Part shown: piece by piece, positions 39,871 through 50,179 of the stretch
Layout: each line of letters opens with the position of its first letter
Numbering within the stretch: the stretch's first letter is position 1
DNA from: Gallionella sp.
GTDB taxonomy: Bacteria > Pseudomonadota > Gammaproteobacteria > Burkholderiales > Gallionellaceae
Reading direction: 5' to 3'
DNA length: 64,000 nt
Assembly (NCBI GenBank): GCA_024641025.1
Contig: JAHEDW010000002.1
Coordinates: 1-64,000, forward strand
Position numbers and translations under genes: made by a program
Notes under the pieces: generated by a model
Told to the model about the DNA's origin: nothing
The model's database searches: none
Seen by the model: the letters and a program-made list of their open reading frames with translations, nothing else

Positions 39871-40791
39871 ATGAGTAGGGCTGTGGTATTTGCGTACCAT
39901 AACGTCGGTGTGCGATGCTTAAATGTTTTGCTTGCGCATGGTATTGATGTCGTACTATTGGTCACCCATACAAACAACCCTAATGAGAACATCTGGTTCG
40001 ATAGCGTTGCAGATCTTGCTGAATTACATGGAATCCCAGTAATCACGCCAGACAATCCCAATACTATGGAAGTGGTGGAGCAGATTCGTGCCTTGCAACC
40101 GGATTTCTTCTTTTCCTTCTATTATCGTGAGATGCTCAAGCATGAATTGTTGGGAATACCTAGTCATGGTGCTTTGAACATGCATGGGTCGTTGTTGCCG
40201 AAATATCGTGGTCGGGTGCCGGTGAATTGGGCGATAATCCATGGCGAGACTGAAACTGGCGCAACCCTTCATTACATGACCGAGAAGCCAGATAATGGAG
40301 ACATCGTTGCTCAACAGGCAGTGCCGATTTTGCCCAACGATACGGCTTTGGATGTATTCGGTAAAGTCACGGTAGCAGCTGAAATGGCGTTGAATAAGTG
40401 CCTTCCCAATCTGATTGCTGGTCGTGCCGAACCGATGAAGCAGGATTTGAGCAAGGGCGCTTACTTTGGTGGTCGCAAACCAGAAGATGGAATCATTGAC
40501 TGGTCGCAATCTGCGCTGACGATACATAATCTGGTACGCGCTGTTGCTCCTCCTTATCCGGGTGCGACAACTAAGTTGGCGAGCAGGCCTTTACGCATTC
40601 TCCAGACGCTGCTGGTAAATAATGATACCGACAACGTGCTGCCTGGATTATATGTGCGGGAAGGTAAAGCTTACGCGACCTGCGGAAAGGGCGTGTTACG
40701 AGTGGTACGATTCGAATTGGATGGCACAGAAACGAGTGCTGAGGAATTCGCCGCACGCTTCGGTACTCTCAAAATCGAATTTAATCGTTAA
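39871..40791 (+). CDS. UDP-L-Ara4N formyltransferase (separate ArnA N-domain)
   Basis: Corresponds to the N-terminal half of E. coli ArnA. It formylates UDP-4-amino-4-deoxy-L-arabinose with 10-formyltetrahydrofolate. The 306 residues hold the formyltransferase fold, with the catalytic asparagine and histidine in LNMHGSLLPKYRGRVPVNW and the aspartate in EKPDNGDIVAQQ, plus an OB-like C-terminal subdomain. In E. coli this activity is fused to the dehydrogenase; here a stop codon and 10 bases separate it from the next gene, which encodes that other half. Both parts look complete, so this is a true split and not a frameshift. Confidence 0.9.
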   Translation: MSRAVVFAYHNVGVRCLNVLLAHGIDVVLLVTHTNNPNENIWFDSVADLAELHGIPVITPDNPNTMEVVEQIRALQPDFFFSFYYREMLKHELLGIPSHGALNMHGSLLPKYRGRVPVNWAIIHGETETGATLHYMTEKPDNGDIVAQQAVPILPNDTALDVFGKVTVAAEMALNKCLPNLIAGRAEPMKQDLSKGAYFGGRKPEDGIIDWSQSALTIHNLVRAVAPPYPGATTKLASRPLRILQTLLVNNDTDNVLPGLYVREGKAYATCGKGVLRVVRFELDGTETSAEEFAARFGTLKIEFNR

Positions 40792-40801
40792 GGAAACCGC
40801 A

Positions 40802-41845
40802 ATGAAAAAAGTATTGATTCTCGGTGTGAACGGATTTATTGGTCACCACCTTTCCAACCGCATCCTCGATACCACCGATTGGGAAGTGTTCGGTATGGAC
40901 ATGAGCACAGATCGGATCAGCGATCTTATTGGGCGGGACCGCTTCCATTTTTTCGAGGGTGATATCACAATCAACAAAGAGTGGGTCGAGTACCATGTGC
41001 GCAAGTGCGACGTGATCTTGCCGTTAGTTGCTATTGCTACACCGTCTACTTATGTCAAGCAACCGCTGCGCGTATTCGAACTCGACTTTGAGGCCAATCT
41101 TCCAATCGTGCGTTCGGCGGTCAAGTACGGCAAACATCTGGTGTTTCCGTCCACTTCTGAAGTATATGGCATGTGCCACGATGATGAATTCGATCCTGAA
41201 AATTCAGAGCTTGTTTGCGGACCGATCAATAAACCACGCTGGATATATTCTTGTTCCAAGCAATTGATGGATAGAGTGATCTGGGGCTATGGGATGCAGG
41301 ATAATCTGAACTTCACACTTTTCCGTCCTTTCAACTGGATCGGTGCCGGTCTTGATTCCATCCATACACCCAAGGAGGGAAGCTCAAGAGTAGTTACGCA
41401 ATTTCTTGGACACATTGTTCGTGGCGAGAACATTAGCCTTGTTGATGGGGGGCATCAGAAGCGCGCCTTTACTTATATCGATGACGGTATCGATGCATTG
41501 GTGAAGATCATAGCGAACAAGGATGGCATTGCCTCTGGCAAGATCTATAACATTGGTAATCCGGAGAATAACTATGCCATATGCGACCTTGCCGACATGA
41601 TGTTGAAATTGGCCAAGGAATATCCTGAGTATCGCGAGTCTGCTCTGAAAGTAAAGATCGTTGAAACTACTTCGGCAGCTTATTATGGCAAGGGATATCA
41701 GGATGTGCAGAATCGCGTGCCAAAGATCACCAATACGTGTGCGGAGTTGAATTGGAAACCGTCGGTCAATATGTCTGACACGTTGCGCTACATATTTGAC
41801 GCATATCGCGGACAGGTTGCAGAAGCTCGCAGTCTGATGGACTGA
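40802..41845 (+). CDS. arnA: UDP-glucuronate oxidative decarboxylase (separate ArnA C-domain)
   Basis: Corresponds to the C-terminal half of ArnA. It oxidises UDP-glucuronic acid at C4 and decarboxylates it to the UDP-4-ketopentose used by ArnB. The 347 residues begin with the NAD motif KVLILGVNGFIGHHLSNR, and the SDR active site shows STSEVYG and the YxxxK pair in WIYSCSKQLMDRV. The arginine-containing block GGHQKRAFTYIDDGIDAL matches the decarboxylating SDR group. ATG 40802 is chosen since the Rossmann strand follows at once; a longer frame only overlaps the formyltransferase gene. arnD begins 2 bases after its stop. Confidence 0.93.
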   Translation: MKKVLILGVNGFIGHHLSNRILDTTDWEVFGMDMSTDRISDLIGRDRFHFFEGDITINKEWVEYHVRKCDVILPLVAIATPSTYVKQPLRVFELDFEANLPIVRSAVKYGKHLVFPSTSEVYGMCHDDEFDPENSELVCGPINKPRWIYSCSKQLMDRVIWGYGMQDNLNFTLFRPFNWIGAGLDSIHTPKEGSSRVVTQFLGHIVRGENISLVDGGHQKRAFTYIDDGIDALVKIIANKDGIASGKIYNIGNPENNYAICDLADMMLKLAKEYPEYRESALKVKIVETTSAAYYGKGYQDVQNRVPKITNTCAELNWKPSVNMSDTLRYIFDAYRGQVAEARSLMD

Positions 41846-41847
41846 TT

Positions 41848-42774
41848 ATGGCCAAGCAGCTCGCCCTCAAGATCGATGTTGATACTTATCGTGGTACTCG
41901 AGAAGGTGTGCCGCGTCTGGTTGAAGCACTCCAGCGCCATAATGCCCAGGCTACTTTCTTTTTCTCGCTTGGACCTGACAACACGGGGCGTGCTATCAAG
42001 CGCGTGTTTCGTCCCGGGTTTATTGGTAAGGTCTCGCGCACTTCGGTAGTTGAACATTATGGTGTAAAGACACTGTTATATGGAACGCTGTTACCAGCAC
42101 CGGACATTGGCAAGAAATGCGCTAGCGAAATGAGAATGGTACAAGTTGCCGGTTTTGAAGTCGGGATCCATTGTTATGACCATATACGCTGGCAAGATCA
42201 TGTAGCCGGAAAGGATGCTGAGTGGACGCGACACGAGTTGCAGCTCGCAGTGGATCGCTATACTGAGATATTTGGTGAGGCGCCACATTCTCATGCTGCT
42301 GCTGGGTGGCAGATGAACCGCGACGCTTTTCGGTTGATGCAGCGCTTTGGATTCGAATATAGTTCAGATACACGCGGTACACATCCTTTCATCCCAACCT
42401 GGCAGGCTGAGATTATTGCTTGCCCACAACTGCCAACGACCTTACCAACACTGGATGAACTGATGAATCGCGATGGTATAACCCAGGAAAATATCGCAGA
42501 TAACATACTGAATCTTACCGCACATCCTTCAAGCACTGGTCATGTTTTCACGCTTCATGCAGAACTGGAAGGTGGAAAATGGTTGCCGATATTCGAGCAG
42601 TTGATACAGGGCTGGCAACAGCAGGGTTACGAATTAGTTTCGATGCACCAGTATTTGCAAGGGCTAGATTTGGCATCGTTACCTCGCCAGGAGGTTGTGA
42701 TGAAGGAAGTGGAAGGGCGCGTCGGAAAACTGTCGGTTGCTGCAGGTGACTCGGAAGCAGGTTTTGCACAATAG
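41848..42774 (+). CDS. arnD: 4-deoxy-4-formamido-L-arabinose-phosphoundecaprenol deformylase
   Basis: Polysaccharide-deacetylase-fold enzyme that removes the formyl group once the sugar is on undecaprenyl phosphate, making the transfer irreversible. The 308 residues start LALKIDVDTYRGTREGVPRL, where the aspartates serve as base and metal ligand, continue with QATFFFSLGPDN, and have the metal histidines in VGIHCYDHIRWQDH. AAAGWQMNR and the histidine near VFTLHAELEG complete the site. It is the last gene of the arn run, followed by a terminator 52 bases after its stop. Confidence 0.93.
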   Translation: MAKQLALKIDVDTYRGTREGVPRLVEALQRHNAQATFFFSLGPDNTGRAIKRVFRPGFIGKVSRTSVVEHYGVKTLLYGTLLPAPDIGKKCASEMRMVQVAGFEVGIHCYDHIRWQDHVAGKDAEWTRHELQLAVDRYTEIFGEAPHSHAAAGWQMNRDAFRLMQRFGFEYSSDTRGTHPFIPTWQAEIIACPQLPTTLPTLDELMNRDGITQENIADNILNLTAHPSSTGHVFTLHAELEGGKWLPIFEQLIQGWQQQGYELVSMHQYLQGLDLASLPRQEVVMKEVEGRVGKLSVAAGDSEAGFAQ

Positions 42775-42826
42775 CGGCATGCTTGCAGAAGCCCTATTGC
42801 CAGGAAGATCTACTGAAACCCCCAGG

Positions 42827-42853
42827 CAGGGATTCTAGCTTTCCCTGATTTTT
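42827..42853 (+). terminator. Terminator after arnD
   Basis: CAGGGA pairs with TCCCTG over a 9-base loop, followed by A and five T residues, 52 bases after the arnD stop codon. A moderate rho-independent terminator that would end the arn transcript. Confidence 0.55.
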
Positions 42854-42879
42854 GAAAAATTTATTATGGTGGTGAATAT

Positions 42880-44592
42880 ATGAAGATATGGTGGGAATCG
42901 CTGGGAATTCAGCTAAAACTCCAGATCATCATCCAGTTGGTGTTAATTGCGGTTTTAATCCCATCACAGCTTTGGATCGAACACCATTTTAGGGAGGAGA
43001 TACTACTAGCAGCGGAGAGTCGAGCTCGGATTTCGGCAGACGGCTTGATCAATGGTATGAACATGCTGATGATCAATGGCATGATCAGCGACCCAGTAAA
43101 TCGTGAACTATACATCAAGAAAATGGGTGCCTCTGAGGGCGTGAAGGAAATTCGGGTCATTCGTTCCGAACAAGTACAAAAGCAGTTTGGCCCGGGGTTG
43201 CCCCAAGAGCAGTCCATGGATGAGATAGATCGGCGTGTAATCAAAAATGTCCGAGCTGAATTTCATCGGATATATGATAAGGGTGTTCCCGAGTTGCGCG
43301 CAGTCGTTCCATTCGTTGTGAGCACCGATTTCCGCGGTACCAACTGTCTTGACTGTCATGAGTCACAAGTCGGAACTGCAAATGGTGCGGCAAGCATCAC
43401 GCTTGACCTGAAGCAAGACTATGAAAACCTGACAAGAACAAGCGCGCTGCTGTGGGGTGGGCAAGCTGCCTTGCAATTGATTCTGTTTCTGCTCATTGGG
43501 AGATTTACCCATACAATAACCCGTCCACTTGAGAATCTTCAGTCCACGATGAGTGCATTGCAGAAAGAGGAGGACTTGGCTCGTTATGTAGGTACGATGC
43601 CGCCCCTGAAAATATCAGGTGGGGATGAAATCGGACAGTTGAGTGCGACGTTTAACCGCATGGTTAAAACTTTGCAGCAGCAGATGATTTCGCTGCGCAT
43701 CTCCGAAGAGATGCAGCAACGCTACCTGACTCTGGAACGTGAGGAACAGGCCCGTTTGATGGCGTTGCTCGCAGTGATGAACGTTGGCGTATTGTTCGTC
43801 AGTCGGGATAACAAGATCCTCCATGTGAATCCAACGTTTTTCACTATCTGGCAGATCCCCTCTGAGACCAAGTTGGAAGGCAGAGACGTTGATGATATCC
43901 CCGGATACCTTTCACACTTACTTTCCAATGATAAGGCTGCCGCCCAACATCTTCTGGAATTGCCTGAAACGACAGACCTGTACCTGGCGGACAAGCGAGT
44001 GGTGGTGCAGACTTGCTATGCGGTTCGCGACGTTGAGGCTCAAGTGCTTGGTCACTTGTGGCTTTACGAGGATGTCACGCACGCGCGTCGTACTCCTGAA
44101 CAGTTGTTACATTTGGCTGAGCGCGATGCACTTACCGGCCTGTGTAATCGATACCGGTTTACTAGTGAGTTGGAGCTTGCAGTGTTGGATGCAAAGCGCA
44201 ATGGTGCCAAAGTAGCACTGCTCTCATTCGGCATCGATGATCTGAGCCATATCAATGACTCTTACGGAAATGTTACTGGTGATAGGATCCTGACCCTCGT
44301 GGCTGACACAGTCGGGAAGAATGTAAGAGCCAATGAATTGTTTTGCAGGTTGCGAGGAGATGAGTTTGCGGTACTCATCAGGAATGCTTCAGAGAAAGAT
44401 ACAAAGGGGTTGGCGCAGCGCATCGCTCAAGACCTGTCACGAATTGAGTTTGAATCGGGTGGGCAGAGGTTTGCAGTTAAAACGAGCATGGGAATGGCAT
44501 TTTTCCCGGATAATGGTGAAAGTGAGAAGGAACTGATTACACATGCTGATGCCGAAATATCTTTGGCAAGACGATCCGGAAAGAGAATCTAG
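42880..44592 (+). CDS. Membrane diguanylate cyclase with periplasmic haem-c sensor motif
   Basis: A 570-residue signalling protein. A membrane helix at about residues 14-32 is followed by a periplasmic domain to about 185 that contains CLDCH at residues 156-160, the CXXCH signature for covalent haem c. A second membrane helix at about 190-208, a HAMP domain, a PAS-like domain around 295-400 and a C-terminal GGDEF domain follow. The GGDEF loop reads RLRGDEFAVLI, with arginine in place of the first glycine; such variants can still be active, so cyclase function is likely but not certain. The haem suggests sensing of redox state, oxygen or NO. It lies between arnD and ugd, though a terminator separates it from arnD. 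Confidence 0.88.
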   Translation: MKIWWESLGIQLKLQIIIQLVLIAVLIPSQLWIEHHFREEILLAAESRARISADGLINGMNMLMINGMISDPVNRELYIKKMGASEGVKEIRVIRSEQVQKQFGPGLPQEQSMDEIDRRVIKNVRAEFHRIYDKGVPELRAVVPFVVSTDFRGTNCLDCHESQVGTANGAASITLDLKQDYENLTRTSALLWGGQAALQLILFLLIGRFTHTITRPLENLQSTMSALQKEEDLARYVGTMPPLKISGGDEIGQLSATFNRMVKTLQQQMISLRISEEMQQRYLTLEREEQARLMALLAVMNVGVLFVSRDNKILHVNPTFFTIWQIPSETKLEGRDVDDIPGYLSHLLSNDKAAAQHLLELPETTDLYLADKRVVVQTCYAVRDVEAQVLGHLWLYEDVTHARRTPEQLLHLAERDALTGLCNRYRFTSELELAVLDAKRNGAKVALLSFGIDDLSHINDSYGNVTGDRILTLVADTVGKNVRANELFCRLRGDEFAVLIRNASEKDTKGLAQRIAQDLSRIEFESGGQRFAVKTSMGMAFFPDNGESEKELITHADAEISLARRSGKRI

Positions 44593-44654
44593 AAATATTT
44601 CTGCTGATGTTATGGCTTAATGGTAGGGTTGGAAGGGCGCTTAGATAGATCTCG

Positions 44655-45995
44655 CTAAGGCCCCTGTATAGCGTTTTCCCGACCGATGCCATGATACTCG
44701 ATGCCGTGAGCAGTTACGCTGGCTGGTTCGAACAGATTTCTACCATCAAATATCACTGGTTGCTTCAATCGTGATTTGATAACGCTGAAGTCTGGGCTCT
44801 TGAAAGCTTTCCATTCAGTGATGATTACAAGCGCATCGGCTTCATTCAGAGCATCTTTGGGATTTTCGGCATACCTCAGGTCATTGCGTTCACCATAGAT
44901 ATGCTGGGTCTCCTTCATCGCTACAGGGTCATAGGTTGTAATTGTTGCGCCTTTTTCCCATAACCCTTCCATCACTACTCGGCTGGTTGCTTCACGCATG
45001 TCATCGGTTCCAGGCTTGAAAGCAAGCCCCCATAGCGCGAAGTGTTTGCCTTTGAGGTTTTCTCCAAAGCGCCTTGTAATTTTCTGAAGCAGCACATTTT
45101 TCTGCGAATGGTTTACTTCTTCTACTGCCTGCAACACCTTCAAAGGGAGGCCATGCTCCTCTCCAGTGCGCTGCAGAGCACGTATATCCTTGGGAAAACA
45201 TGATCCTCCGTAACCGCAACCTGCATACAAAAAGTGGTACCCGATGCGCTGATCAGAGCCGATACCTTTTCGTACATATTCGATGTCAGCACCTACGCGT
45301 TCTGCTAGATTGGCTAGTTCGTTCATGAAAGAGATTCGTGTGGCCAGCATTGCATTGGCAGCATACTTGGTCAGTTCTGCTGATTTGATATCCATCACCA
45401 TCAACCGATCGTGATTTCGCTGGAAAGGAGCGTACATATCCTGCATAACCTTGATGGCCTGATCATCTTCAGCACCAATCACTATGCGGTCTGGGCGGTT
45501 GAAATCATCTATTGCAGCCCCTTCCTTGAGGAACTCAGGGTTGGACACCACACTGAATTTGGTATCGACCCCGCGTTTATCCAGTTCATCCTGAACTGCT
45601 TTCTTGACTTTGTCAGCGGTGCCGACGGGTACTGTGGATTTATCCACGATAACTTTGTATTCTGACATGGTGCGGCCGATAGCTCGCGCCGCTGCAATCA
45701 CATATTGCAGATCGGCCGAACCGTCTTCTCCTGAGGGCGTACCTACCGCAATCATTTGTACCTGGCCGTGTGCAGTGCTTTGCTCGACATCGGTGGTGAA
45801 ATGCAAGCGACCAGCAGCAACATTGCTCTTAATGACTTCTTCTAGGCCTGGTTCGTAGATTGGAACGCCGCCTTGCTGCAATATCTCGATCTTGCGTGGA
45901 TCAACGTCCAGGCACATCACGTCATTGCCTAGTTCAGCAAGGCATGCGCCGGAAACCAAACCTACATAGCCAGATCCGATGACTGTAATTTTCAT
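44655..45995 (-). CDS. ugd: UDP-glucose 6-dehydrogenase
   Basis: Oxidises UDP-glucose twice with NAD to UDP-glucuronic acid, the precursor for the ArnA decarboxylase encoded on the opposite strand nearby. The 446 residues begin [20 protein letters not shown], contain [14 protein letters not shown] and [14 protein letters not shown], and carry the catalytic cysteine in [16 protein letters not shown]. The C-terminal domain ends with a strand typical of the family ([12 protein letters not shown]). It is a single gene with its own promoter region; it may also supply capsule or exopolysaccharide pathways. Confidence 0.96.
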
Positions 45996-48901: not shown

Positions 48902-49186
48902 GGTGAAAACAGGTTAACAGACCTTTGGCATTATAACGGACATGCCAGAGCGGCATGAATCTCAAGCAGTGAACAAAGGGTTTAAAAAGTTAAATAGCCC
49001 GGTTTTCCCTCCCTATTCCCTGCTTGAATGGATAGAGAAGCTTGATAGCTTATGCAGCGTGGCAAACCGAGGAATCTGCACTTGTGGATGCGGGCAAGTG
49101 CCAGTATCTGGATGCAGGGTAATGCGAGCCAAAATTGGTTCGAAGTCCTTTATAAAGAACGTTTTATCAATCAAGAGGATTACAAA

Positions 49187-50179
49187 ATGGGGAAACCAGG
49201 AACTTGGGGAAATAGCGAAACAGTTCAATTGGAGATTTTGCCGTTTGAGAGCAACCCGTTAGAAATTAAGTATACTCATATTTCCACACGGTTCGATCCC
49301 GAGTATGGGGTTTTATGGACTCAAATGAAACCTGAAGGAATACCTTGTTGCAGCCAAGGATTGCTGGACGACTTGGATCATCATCAGAAAATTCTTGAGA
49401 AATCAGGCGGGAAGATAAAAGTTGGGGATCAGTTACACGCCATCCACTATGCTGTCGCATCTTCCTTGACCCCTGGGGTGTTTAACCTTGGCGGCGATCT
49501 CGGATTATTTTCCGCGCTGATCAAAAGCAAGGACCGTCAGGCTTTGCTGAAGTACTCGGCAAAATGTCTTGATGTGATCTTTACGCGAACGAGTCATTAC
49601 AAATTCCCTCTGATTACCATTTCTCTTGTTCAAGGTGATGCTTTGGGAGGAGGGCTTGAAGCAGCGCTATCTAGCGATGTGATTATTGCTGAACGCAGCA
49701 CTAAAATGGGCTTCCCTGAAATGCTGTTCAACCTTATCCCTGGCCATGGAGCATTCAGTATGGCAGCAAGAAAGATCGGGGTAGCTCAAGCGGAAAGAAT
49801 GATACTTAGCGGGAAAATATACTCTGCCGAGGAACTTCATGAAATGGGGTTGGTTGATGTGATAGCTGAGGATGGTGAAGGTGTCGAAGCAGTTCGCAAT
49901 TACGTCGCAAAACAATCGCGCTGTTCTAACGGTTACATGGCGCTGCAAAAGGCGCGGCATCGATTCAACCCGGTAACCTATCAGGAGATGATGGACATAA
50001 CAAACATCTGGGTAGATGCAGCATTGCAACTGACGGACCGCGATCTTAAGGTGATGGATCGTTTCTTGCGGTCACAGCAGAAGATTTTTGGGAAATACGA
50101 AACAGTGGTCCATTCTGGTGTTGCTGTTCAAGCATTAATGGCAGCGCGAAGGAAAGTAGAGATATCTATAGTGTCATGA
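49187..50179 (+). CDS. rpfF: DSF synthase (crotonase family)
   Basis: Makes the diffusible signal factor, a cis-2-unsaturated fatty acid, from acyl-ACP by combined dehydratase and thioesterase action. The 330 residues contain the crotonase core. The two catalytic glutamates of RpfF appear at position 158 in LGGGLEAALSSDV and position 178 in MGFPEMLFNLIPGHGA. The spacing of 20 equals Glu141/Glu161 of Xanthomonas RpfF, and GHGAFSMAARKIG is diagnostic of this family. ATG 49187 is chosen because AAGAGG lies nine bases before it; upstream codons in frame are unlike the family. The gene converges on rpfC and overlaps its stop by 6 bases. No rpfB fatty-acid ligase gene is nearby. Confidence 0.92.
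   Translation: MGKPGTWGNSETVQLEILPFESNPLEIKYTHISTRFDPEYGVLWTQMKPEGIPCCSQGLLDDLDHHQKILEKSGGKIKVGDQLHAIHYAVASSLTPGVFNLGGDLGLFSALIKSKDRQALLKYSAKCLDVIFTRTSHYKFPLITISLVQGDALGGGLEAALSSDVIIAERSTKMGFPEMLFNLIPGHGAFSMAARKIGVAQAERMILSGKIYSAEELHEMGLVDVIAEDGEGVEAVRNYVAKQSRCSNGYMALQKARHRFNPVTYQEMMDITNIWVDAALQLTDRDLKVMDRFLRSQQKIFGKYETVVHSGVAVQALMAARRKVEISIVS

Follow-up and report, generated by a model that had tools for sequence, protein, structure and literature searches.

A probable haem-c sensor domain joined to a degenerate GGDEF domain in a Gallionella protein that is probably not a diguanylate cyclase

Introduction

What can a protein be expected to sense, and what to do with the signal, if it carries a single CXXCH motif in its periplasmic part and an imperfect GGDEF domain in its cytoplasmic part? 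This question is raised by one gene in a window of 64,000 nucleotides (the whole stretch of DNA analysed here; positions 1 to 64,000 of contig JAHEDW010000002.1, assembly GCA_024641025.1) from Gallionella sp., lying in contig C5 of a genome of 2.5 Mb in 132 contigs. A sequence-only reading had named the gene a diguanylate cyclase with a periplasmic haem-c sensor. We favour, as fairly probable, a related reading: a one-component haem-c sensor of the periplasm, responsive to redox state or nitric oxide (NO), that would drive a non-catalytic GGDEF domain.

Results

Layout of the gene

The open reading frame begins with ATG, and its features are collected in Table 1. The CLDCH motif is found where it had been placed, in a frame encoding HAMP, PAS and GGDEF; the PAS domain is weak by Pfam, as the PAS_8 score (20.9 bits) falls just under the curated cut-off of 21.8 bits. 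From the arrangement of the two membrane helices and HAMP, we infer that the loop carrying CLDCH is periplasmic. No Pfam family matched the sensor region (residues 33-186) at E values up to 0.1. A search for sigma-70-type promoters in positions 42600-44900 found none, against 2.4 expected by chance, which says little. The full-length AlphaFold model, made without an alignment, was discarded (mean pLDDT 35.8), whereas the model of the sensor domain reached a mean pLDDT of 95.5 and shows a single helix over residues 26-65.

Table 1. Features of the gene, in coordinates of the window
Feature	Residues	Position	Strand	Basis
Whole gene: haem-c sensor-HAMP-PAS-degenerate GGDEF	570 aa	42880..44592	+	ORF, Pfam
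First membrane helix	about 13-32	42916..42975	+	by inspection
Periplasmic haem-c Cache/PAS-like sensor domain	33-186	42976..43437	+	profile match to 3b47/3b42, model, Foldseek
Met64, predicted distal haem ligand, aligned with GSU0935 Met60	64	43069..43071	+	profile alignment, conservation
CLDCH, predicted haem c attachment, His160 predicted proximal ligand	156-160	43345..43359	+	motif conservation
Second membrane helix	about 190-212	43447..43515	+	by inspection
HAMP	209-267	43504..43680	+	Pfam PF00672, 1.9e-10
Cytoplasmic PAS	about 291-405	43750..44094	+	weak PAS_8; identity to PAS-GGDEF-EAL proteins
GGDEF, degenerate	414-568	44119..44583	+	Pfam PF00990, 1.8e-33
Gly451 replacing the metal-binding Asp (PleD D327)	451	44230..44232	+	alignments
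RGDEF, Arg replacing the first Gly	492-496	44353..44367	+	motif, alignments

Homology and fold of the sensor domain

An alignment profile was needed to place the sensor, because a search of the PDB with the single sequence returned nothing useful. The profile, built on 31 homologues taken from the 35 found, all of which carry CXXCH (35/35), matched 3b47 (GSU0582, E 8.7e-6) first and 3b42 (GSU0935, E 0.0026) second; both alignments span the whole domain, and the 16 weaker matches are short stretches around CXXCH in cytochromes. With the sensor model as query, Foldseek also ranked 3b42 first (8.7e-7) at an rmsd of 14.2, a large value that the helix-swapped dimer in the crystal may explain, followed by WalK and then by CitA-type domains. 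VIA-align placed WalK at the top (Z 12.4), with many Cache domains and with Tll0287 (5b82) at Z 9.1 over 122 residues; neither 3b42 nor 3b47 is among its best 50 matches. By model and Foldseek, the domain has the PAS/Cache-like fold of the Geobacter-type haem-c sensors. It shares with the Geobacter chemoreceptors GSU0582 and GSU0935 (3B47, 3B42) the match over the whole domain, the TM-sensor-TM-HAMP layout, a CXXCH near the C-terminal end and a Met at the Met60 position of the N-terminal helix; their output is MCP, whereas the output of the protein studied here is PAS-GGDEF.

The domain also resembles the sCache_heme/DUF3365/Tll0287-like family (PF11845) in its Cache fold and in the CXXCH-bearing element before the last strand, but the PF11845 profile misses the protein. 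Membership by profile was rejected, since none of the Pfam searches of the gene gave such a match, and a PF11845 search of the same genome at E values up to 10 returned seven places, the sensor gene not among them. In a profile-profile comparison (hhalign) with local PF11845 proteins, only the C-terminal half of the sensor matched (95.5%, 62 columns). Among the 31 aligned homologues, nine match PF11845 at E up to 1, and five match PF21563 weakly (best E 0.0021), the query protein not being one of them. PF21563 is the sensor model of class 40H chemoreceptors, which we take to stand for the periplasmic haem-c sensor domains of GSU0582 and GSU0935. A Cys in the N-terminal part, which is probably the axial Cys of Tll0287, occurs in 11 of the 17 local PF11845-type proteins; the query has its conserved Met instead. 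We consider it very likely that the sensor is a haem-c domain of a known type. The available portions of a 2026 preprint present DUF3365/Tll0287 as a Cache family with haem c, whose fusion partners include GGDEF/EAL modules, count GSU0582/0935 in the sCache_heme family, and report NO-sensor behaviour for one signalling-type member without the axial Cys (PMC12889525).

Conservation of the CXXCH motif and of a predicted second ligand

The motif was examined by searching 369 genomes of the class with the domain cut off before CXXCH. This motif-less query matched 68 places in 51 of the genomes, all of which were read, and 67 of them have CXXCH at the homologous place; Met64, Arg95, Pro144, both Cys, His160 and Gly169 are invariant in these 67 homologues. 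Only L194 departs from this: on our reading, its 234-aa frame leaves the sensor domain for unrelated sequence before the motif is reached. Homologues that keep the domain and lack CXXCH, which the sequence-only reading had named as the case that would refute it, were not encountered in this set. L194 itself (G064:C154:18871-19176), with its sensor cut before CXXCH, is a gene wreck or an assembly join.

In the profile alignment, counted by hand, Met64 pairs with chain residue 26 of 3b42; since chain residue 106 is Cys140 of CXXCH, residue 26 is Met60. A Met at this position is present in the query and in all 67 homologues. According to the accessible parts of PMC8396549, Met60 of GSU0935 is the distal ligand and is released on oxidation, with His144-Met60 ligation in one haem and water in the other; the haem of GSU0582 has a water ligand; the oxidised state is high spin and the reduced state low spin, and CO or NO displaces Met60 in the reduced form. 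On the alignment with Met60 and the invariance of Met64, ligation of the haem by His160 and Met64 is predicted, and we consider it likely. The genome encodes CcmE for haem c maturation. With regard to NO chemistry, it has three COX1-family matches, one of them cbb3-type (ccoN, just under cut-off, at a contig end). The haem-c assignment made from the motif is supported by the solved haem-c homologues, the fold, the motif in 67/68 matches and the presence of CcmE.

Spread of the sensor

Covalent haem c in a sensor had been thought uncommon. This is not supported for the present domain, which in full length is matched in 56 of 369 genomes of the class (E up to 1e-3) and in 50 of 76 genomes of the genus (E up to 1e-6), and families of this kind are already published. 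Of the four named relatives of the sensor, two belong to Gallionella MAGs and the other two to a Nitrosomonadales and a 'Proteobacteria bacterium' MAG. As had been suggested, the periplasmic domain was sought elsewhere, and it is found on chemoreceptors as well as on GGDEF proteins; the outputs of the fetched proteins, judged from short sequence patterns only, are of chemoreceptor, GGDEF and GGDEF-EAL types. A second copy in the same genome belongs to a 541-aa chemoreceptor with HAMP and MCPsignal domains (L121:7757-9382, contig C127). The genes adjoining this chemoreceptor look like cheV, cheY, cheZ and cheA, named from their sequences. The genome further encodes a 683-aa, more distant haem-sensor-like protein with canonical GGDEF and EAL domains (contig C98, L123:5856-7907), and therefore probably has another haem-c c-di-GMP protein. 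The matches of the 683-aa protein's sensor to the query domain (E 0.06) and to PF11845 (17.4 bits) are both weak, and this sensor may link the query-type and PF11845 subfamilies.

In the portions seen of a Gallionellaceae pangenome study (PMC10734462), monohaem MCPs are listed with counts of 54 and 43, and the count is 36 for a monohaem 'diguanylate cyclase with PAS/PAC sensor', these being probably counts of genomes; these monohaem sensory proteins (clusters 152, 40 and 400) have one CXXCH, as the query has. The haem-c reading of the sensor is not new.

Chimeric origin of the gene

The two ends of the protein have different relatives. In the sensor, its identity is 56-61% to three genus proteins of the canonical haem-GGDEF kind and 49% to the chemoreceptor of the same genome. 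The GGDEF domain is only 31-34% identical to those of the same three proteins, and their PAS domains gave no match to the query PAS. PAS and GGDEF are instead 39-48% identical to four proteins of a PAS-GGDEF-EAL family (PAS alone 39-44%). This HAMP-PAS-GGDEF-EAL family was found in 110 of 399 genomes of the order (E up to 1e-30), a count that includes shorter matches, with up to six candidates per genome scored among the matches listed. Pfam found HAMP-PAS-GGDEF-EAL in 4/4 members scanned. Of 29 members fetched, 28 have an EAL-type signature after GGDEF, the remaining frame being short; all 29 keep the metal-binding Asp, the GGDEF motif and an RxxE I-site, and none has CXXCH.

In a tree of 73 GGDEF domains, the query pairs at 100/100 with its only close orthologue found (82% identical; L005 = L065), and both group with the EAL family, again at 100/100, on a long branch of their own (1.31). 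The gene is a chimera of the sensor-TM-HAMP part of the haem-sensor family of the genus and the PAS-GGDEF part of the HAMP-PAS-GGDEF-EAL family, with EAL missing. From the identities and the tree it follows that a haem sensor acquired the PAS-GGDEF part of an EAL-bearing protein without its EAL domain; the latter family is called the donor family below.

Catalytic residues of the GGDEF domain

The sequence-only reading had noted RGDEF and left catalytic activity for testing. Besides this change of GG(D/E)EF, the domain lacks the metal-binding Asp; the title of diguanylate cyclase is probably wrong. Five PDB-sequence alignments, two of them of one enzyme, set G451 against Asp and R492 against Gly. 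The Asp corresponds to PleD D327, which coordinates metals and is reported, in the parts of PMC7288161 at hand, to be essential together with N335 and D344. The guanine-binding residues corresponding to the latter two are kept as N459 and D468, and so is the Asp-Glu-Phe of the motif. The c-di-GMP I-site RxxD is replaced by R483-A-N-E486, and RxxE is the normal state of the donor family (29/29).

The Asp is kept in 16 of 18 GGDEF domains of the genome, the exceptions being the query and L111. The latter (C2:9313-9783) is a second degenerate GGDEF of the genome, with SDEKF, Glu for the metal-binding Asp and the motif broken throughout. Among 28 GGDEF domains (from L005, L006, L008, L015 and the genus loci L065-L093), only L005/L065 and an adjacent ORF of L015 lack the Asp, and all the haem-sensor GGDEF domains of the genus that were examined keep it, the orthologue excepted. 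Both changes, Asp to Gly and Gly to Arg, recur in this orthologue, whereas Asp and Gly stand at these sites in 29/29 donor-family relatives. An assembly error was rejected as their source, because the same changes occur in another MAG. One literature search on RGDEF as a variant of the cyclase active site found nothing, and we make no wider claim from it.

Divergence and selection

The PAS domains of the query and its orthologue are 88% identical and their GGDEF domains 73%. Among 406 pairs of donor relatives, PAS identity exceeds GGDEF identity in only 10, by at most 0.032. Of 65 columns (residues 405-569) invariant in the 29 donor relatives, 23 differ in one or both orthologues, compared with 2 of 23 such columns in PAS. 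Rough estimates of omega, dS being saturated, are 0.086 for GGDEF, 0.045 for PAS and 0.038 for the sensor, as against 0.032 for arnD, 0.063 for mutL and 0.121 for miaA; pN/pS in GGDEF is about 0.22. The GGDEF domain evolves unusually fast and is under purifying selection, and it seems to have changed its constraints rather than to have become a pseudogene.

The lipid A neighbourhood

The gene had also been placed among lipid A modification genes. An Ara4N lipid A set is indeed present upstream on the same strand (ArnT together with ArnB-, ArnC-, ArnA-, the latter split, and ArnD-like genes), arnD ending 105 bases before the query start codon; downstream lies a convergent UDP-glucose dehydrogenase gene on the other strand. 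The placement is lineage-specific, seen only in two sister genomes. In a survey of arnD (30 loci of 71 matches, two of which end within 200 bases after arnD, leaving 28 readable about 1.5 kb downstream), a query-type gene follows arnD in 2 of the 28, namely in the window and at the orthologue, and in two loci (L157, L158) arnD and the dehydrogenase gene are almost adjacent. Searches of 8-13 kb around five haem-GGDEF relatives gave no matches to the arn, ugd, miaA and mutL proteins of the window. The gene has the look of an insertion within a single small lineage, and its position among these neighbours is not enough to link it to lipid A; the case for a role in lipid A modification is weakened by the 2/28 arnD loci and by the relatives without arn neighbours.

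Some further features of the region may be recorded. ArnA is split in two ORFs (formyltransferase and UDP-pentose synthase; window 39871-41845), which overlap by 170 bases as called, and the scores of ArnB, ArnC and ArnD lie below the NCBIfam equivalog cut-offs. At window 49052-50179, a crotonase-family protein has a sub-cut-off match to the DSF synthase RpfF (226 of 550 bits).

Discussion

The mechanism that we would propose starts from a haem c bound covalently to Cys156 and Cys159, its proximal ligand being His160 and its distal ligand Met64, on the pattern of GSU0935. Haem oxidation or NO binding would be expected to release Met64. As the helix bearing Met64 would continue from the first membrane helix, the change would be relayed by the membrane helices, and then by HAMP and PAS, to the GGDEF dimer. 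Redox as the signal is favoured by the Geobacter work and NO by the preprint, as far as the available text of each goes (PMC8396549; PMC12889525), and Met ligation fits both. With the metal-binding Asp and the first Gly lost, the GGDEF domain is expected not to make c-di-GMP, and we judge it probably devoid of cyclase activity. It might serve instead as a regulatory module, by binding nucleotide or by pairing with another GGDEF or EAL protein, and the gene would have arisen when a local-family haem sensor was fused with the PAS-GGDEF part of a PAS-GGDEF-EAL protein, without EAL. Like FimX and Caulobacter CC3396, the protein would use a non-catalytic GGDEF for regulation, but in these two the degenerate GGDEF lies beside an EAL domain, which the query protein lacks.

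Other readings have to be weighed against this one, two of which concern the cytoplasmic end. The domain could be an active diguanylate cyclase under a haem-c sensor, its substitutions being tolerated: it scores well in Pfam, it is under purifying selection, weak or altered activity is conceivable with N459, D468 and DEF kept, and Ser or Ala takes the place of the first Gly in otherwise canonical domains (L095 in the same genome, L074 in the genus). We regard this as unlikely, given that Gly replaces the metal-binding Asp in both orthologues and that every donor relative fetched keeps this Asp, that donor-invariant columns have changed far more often in GGDEF than in PAS, and that positions of the K442/R446 type, which contact phosphate, differ as well (R564 in both proteins, and K568 here where the orthologue has N, by hand mapping to PleD). 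Conversely, the sensor could be working above a decaying remnant without function, as the missing EAL, the two lost catalytic residues and the position of GGDEF as the least conserved domain between the orthologues might suggest. Yet the frame is kept open in two genomes with proteins 82% identical, and the pN/pS and omega of GGDEF are low, the latter being similar to those of mutL and miaA, so that we give this remnant as little credence as an active cyclase.

At the periplasmic end, a single CXXCH is by itself no proof of haem, and the motif might bind a metal or form a disulphide. Against this stand the homology to two domains crystallised with haem c, the conservation of Met64 together with CXXCH and the presence of CcmE, which make a haem-free motif very improbable. 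The preferred reading therefore remains that of a haem-c sensor above a non-catalytic GGDEF domain.

Going further, we can only suggest tentatively, and as one joint proposal, that haem-c sensors with His/Met ligation are an input module widespread in proteobacteria and mostly unrecognised by Pfam, and that the pseudo-cyclase GGDEF acts as a protein-contact or nucleotide-binding switch, which would inform other c-di-GMP enzymes, or the neighbouring Ara4N genes, of the redox state of the periplasm. A common and poorly catalogued sensor subfamily is now placed beside two solved haem-c sensors, with an invariant Met predicted as its second ligand. This matters for the choice between two views of the haem-Cache domains linked to signalling: NO sensors whose coordination is open, of which the available text of PMC12889525 gives one example, or redox sensors with a Met that can be released. 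Annotation of the gene as a cyclase should be avoided, and the combination of a haem-c input with a pseudo-GGDEF offers a natural test of the non-catalytic roles of GGDEF domains.
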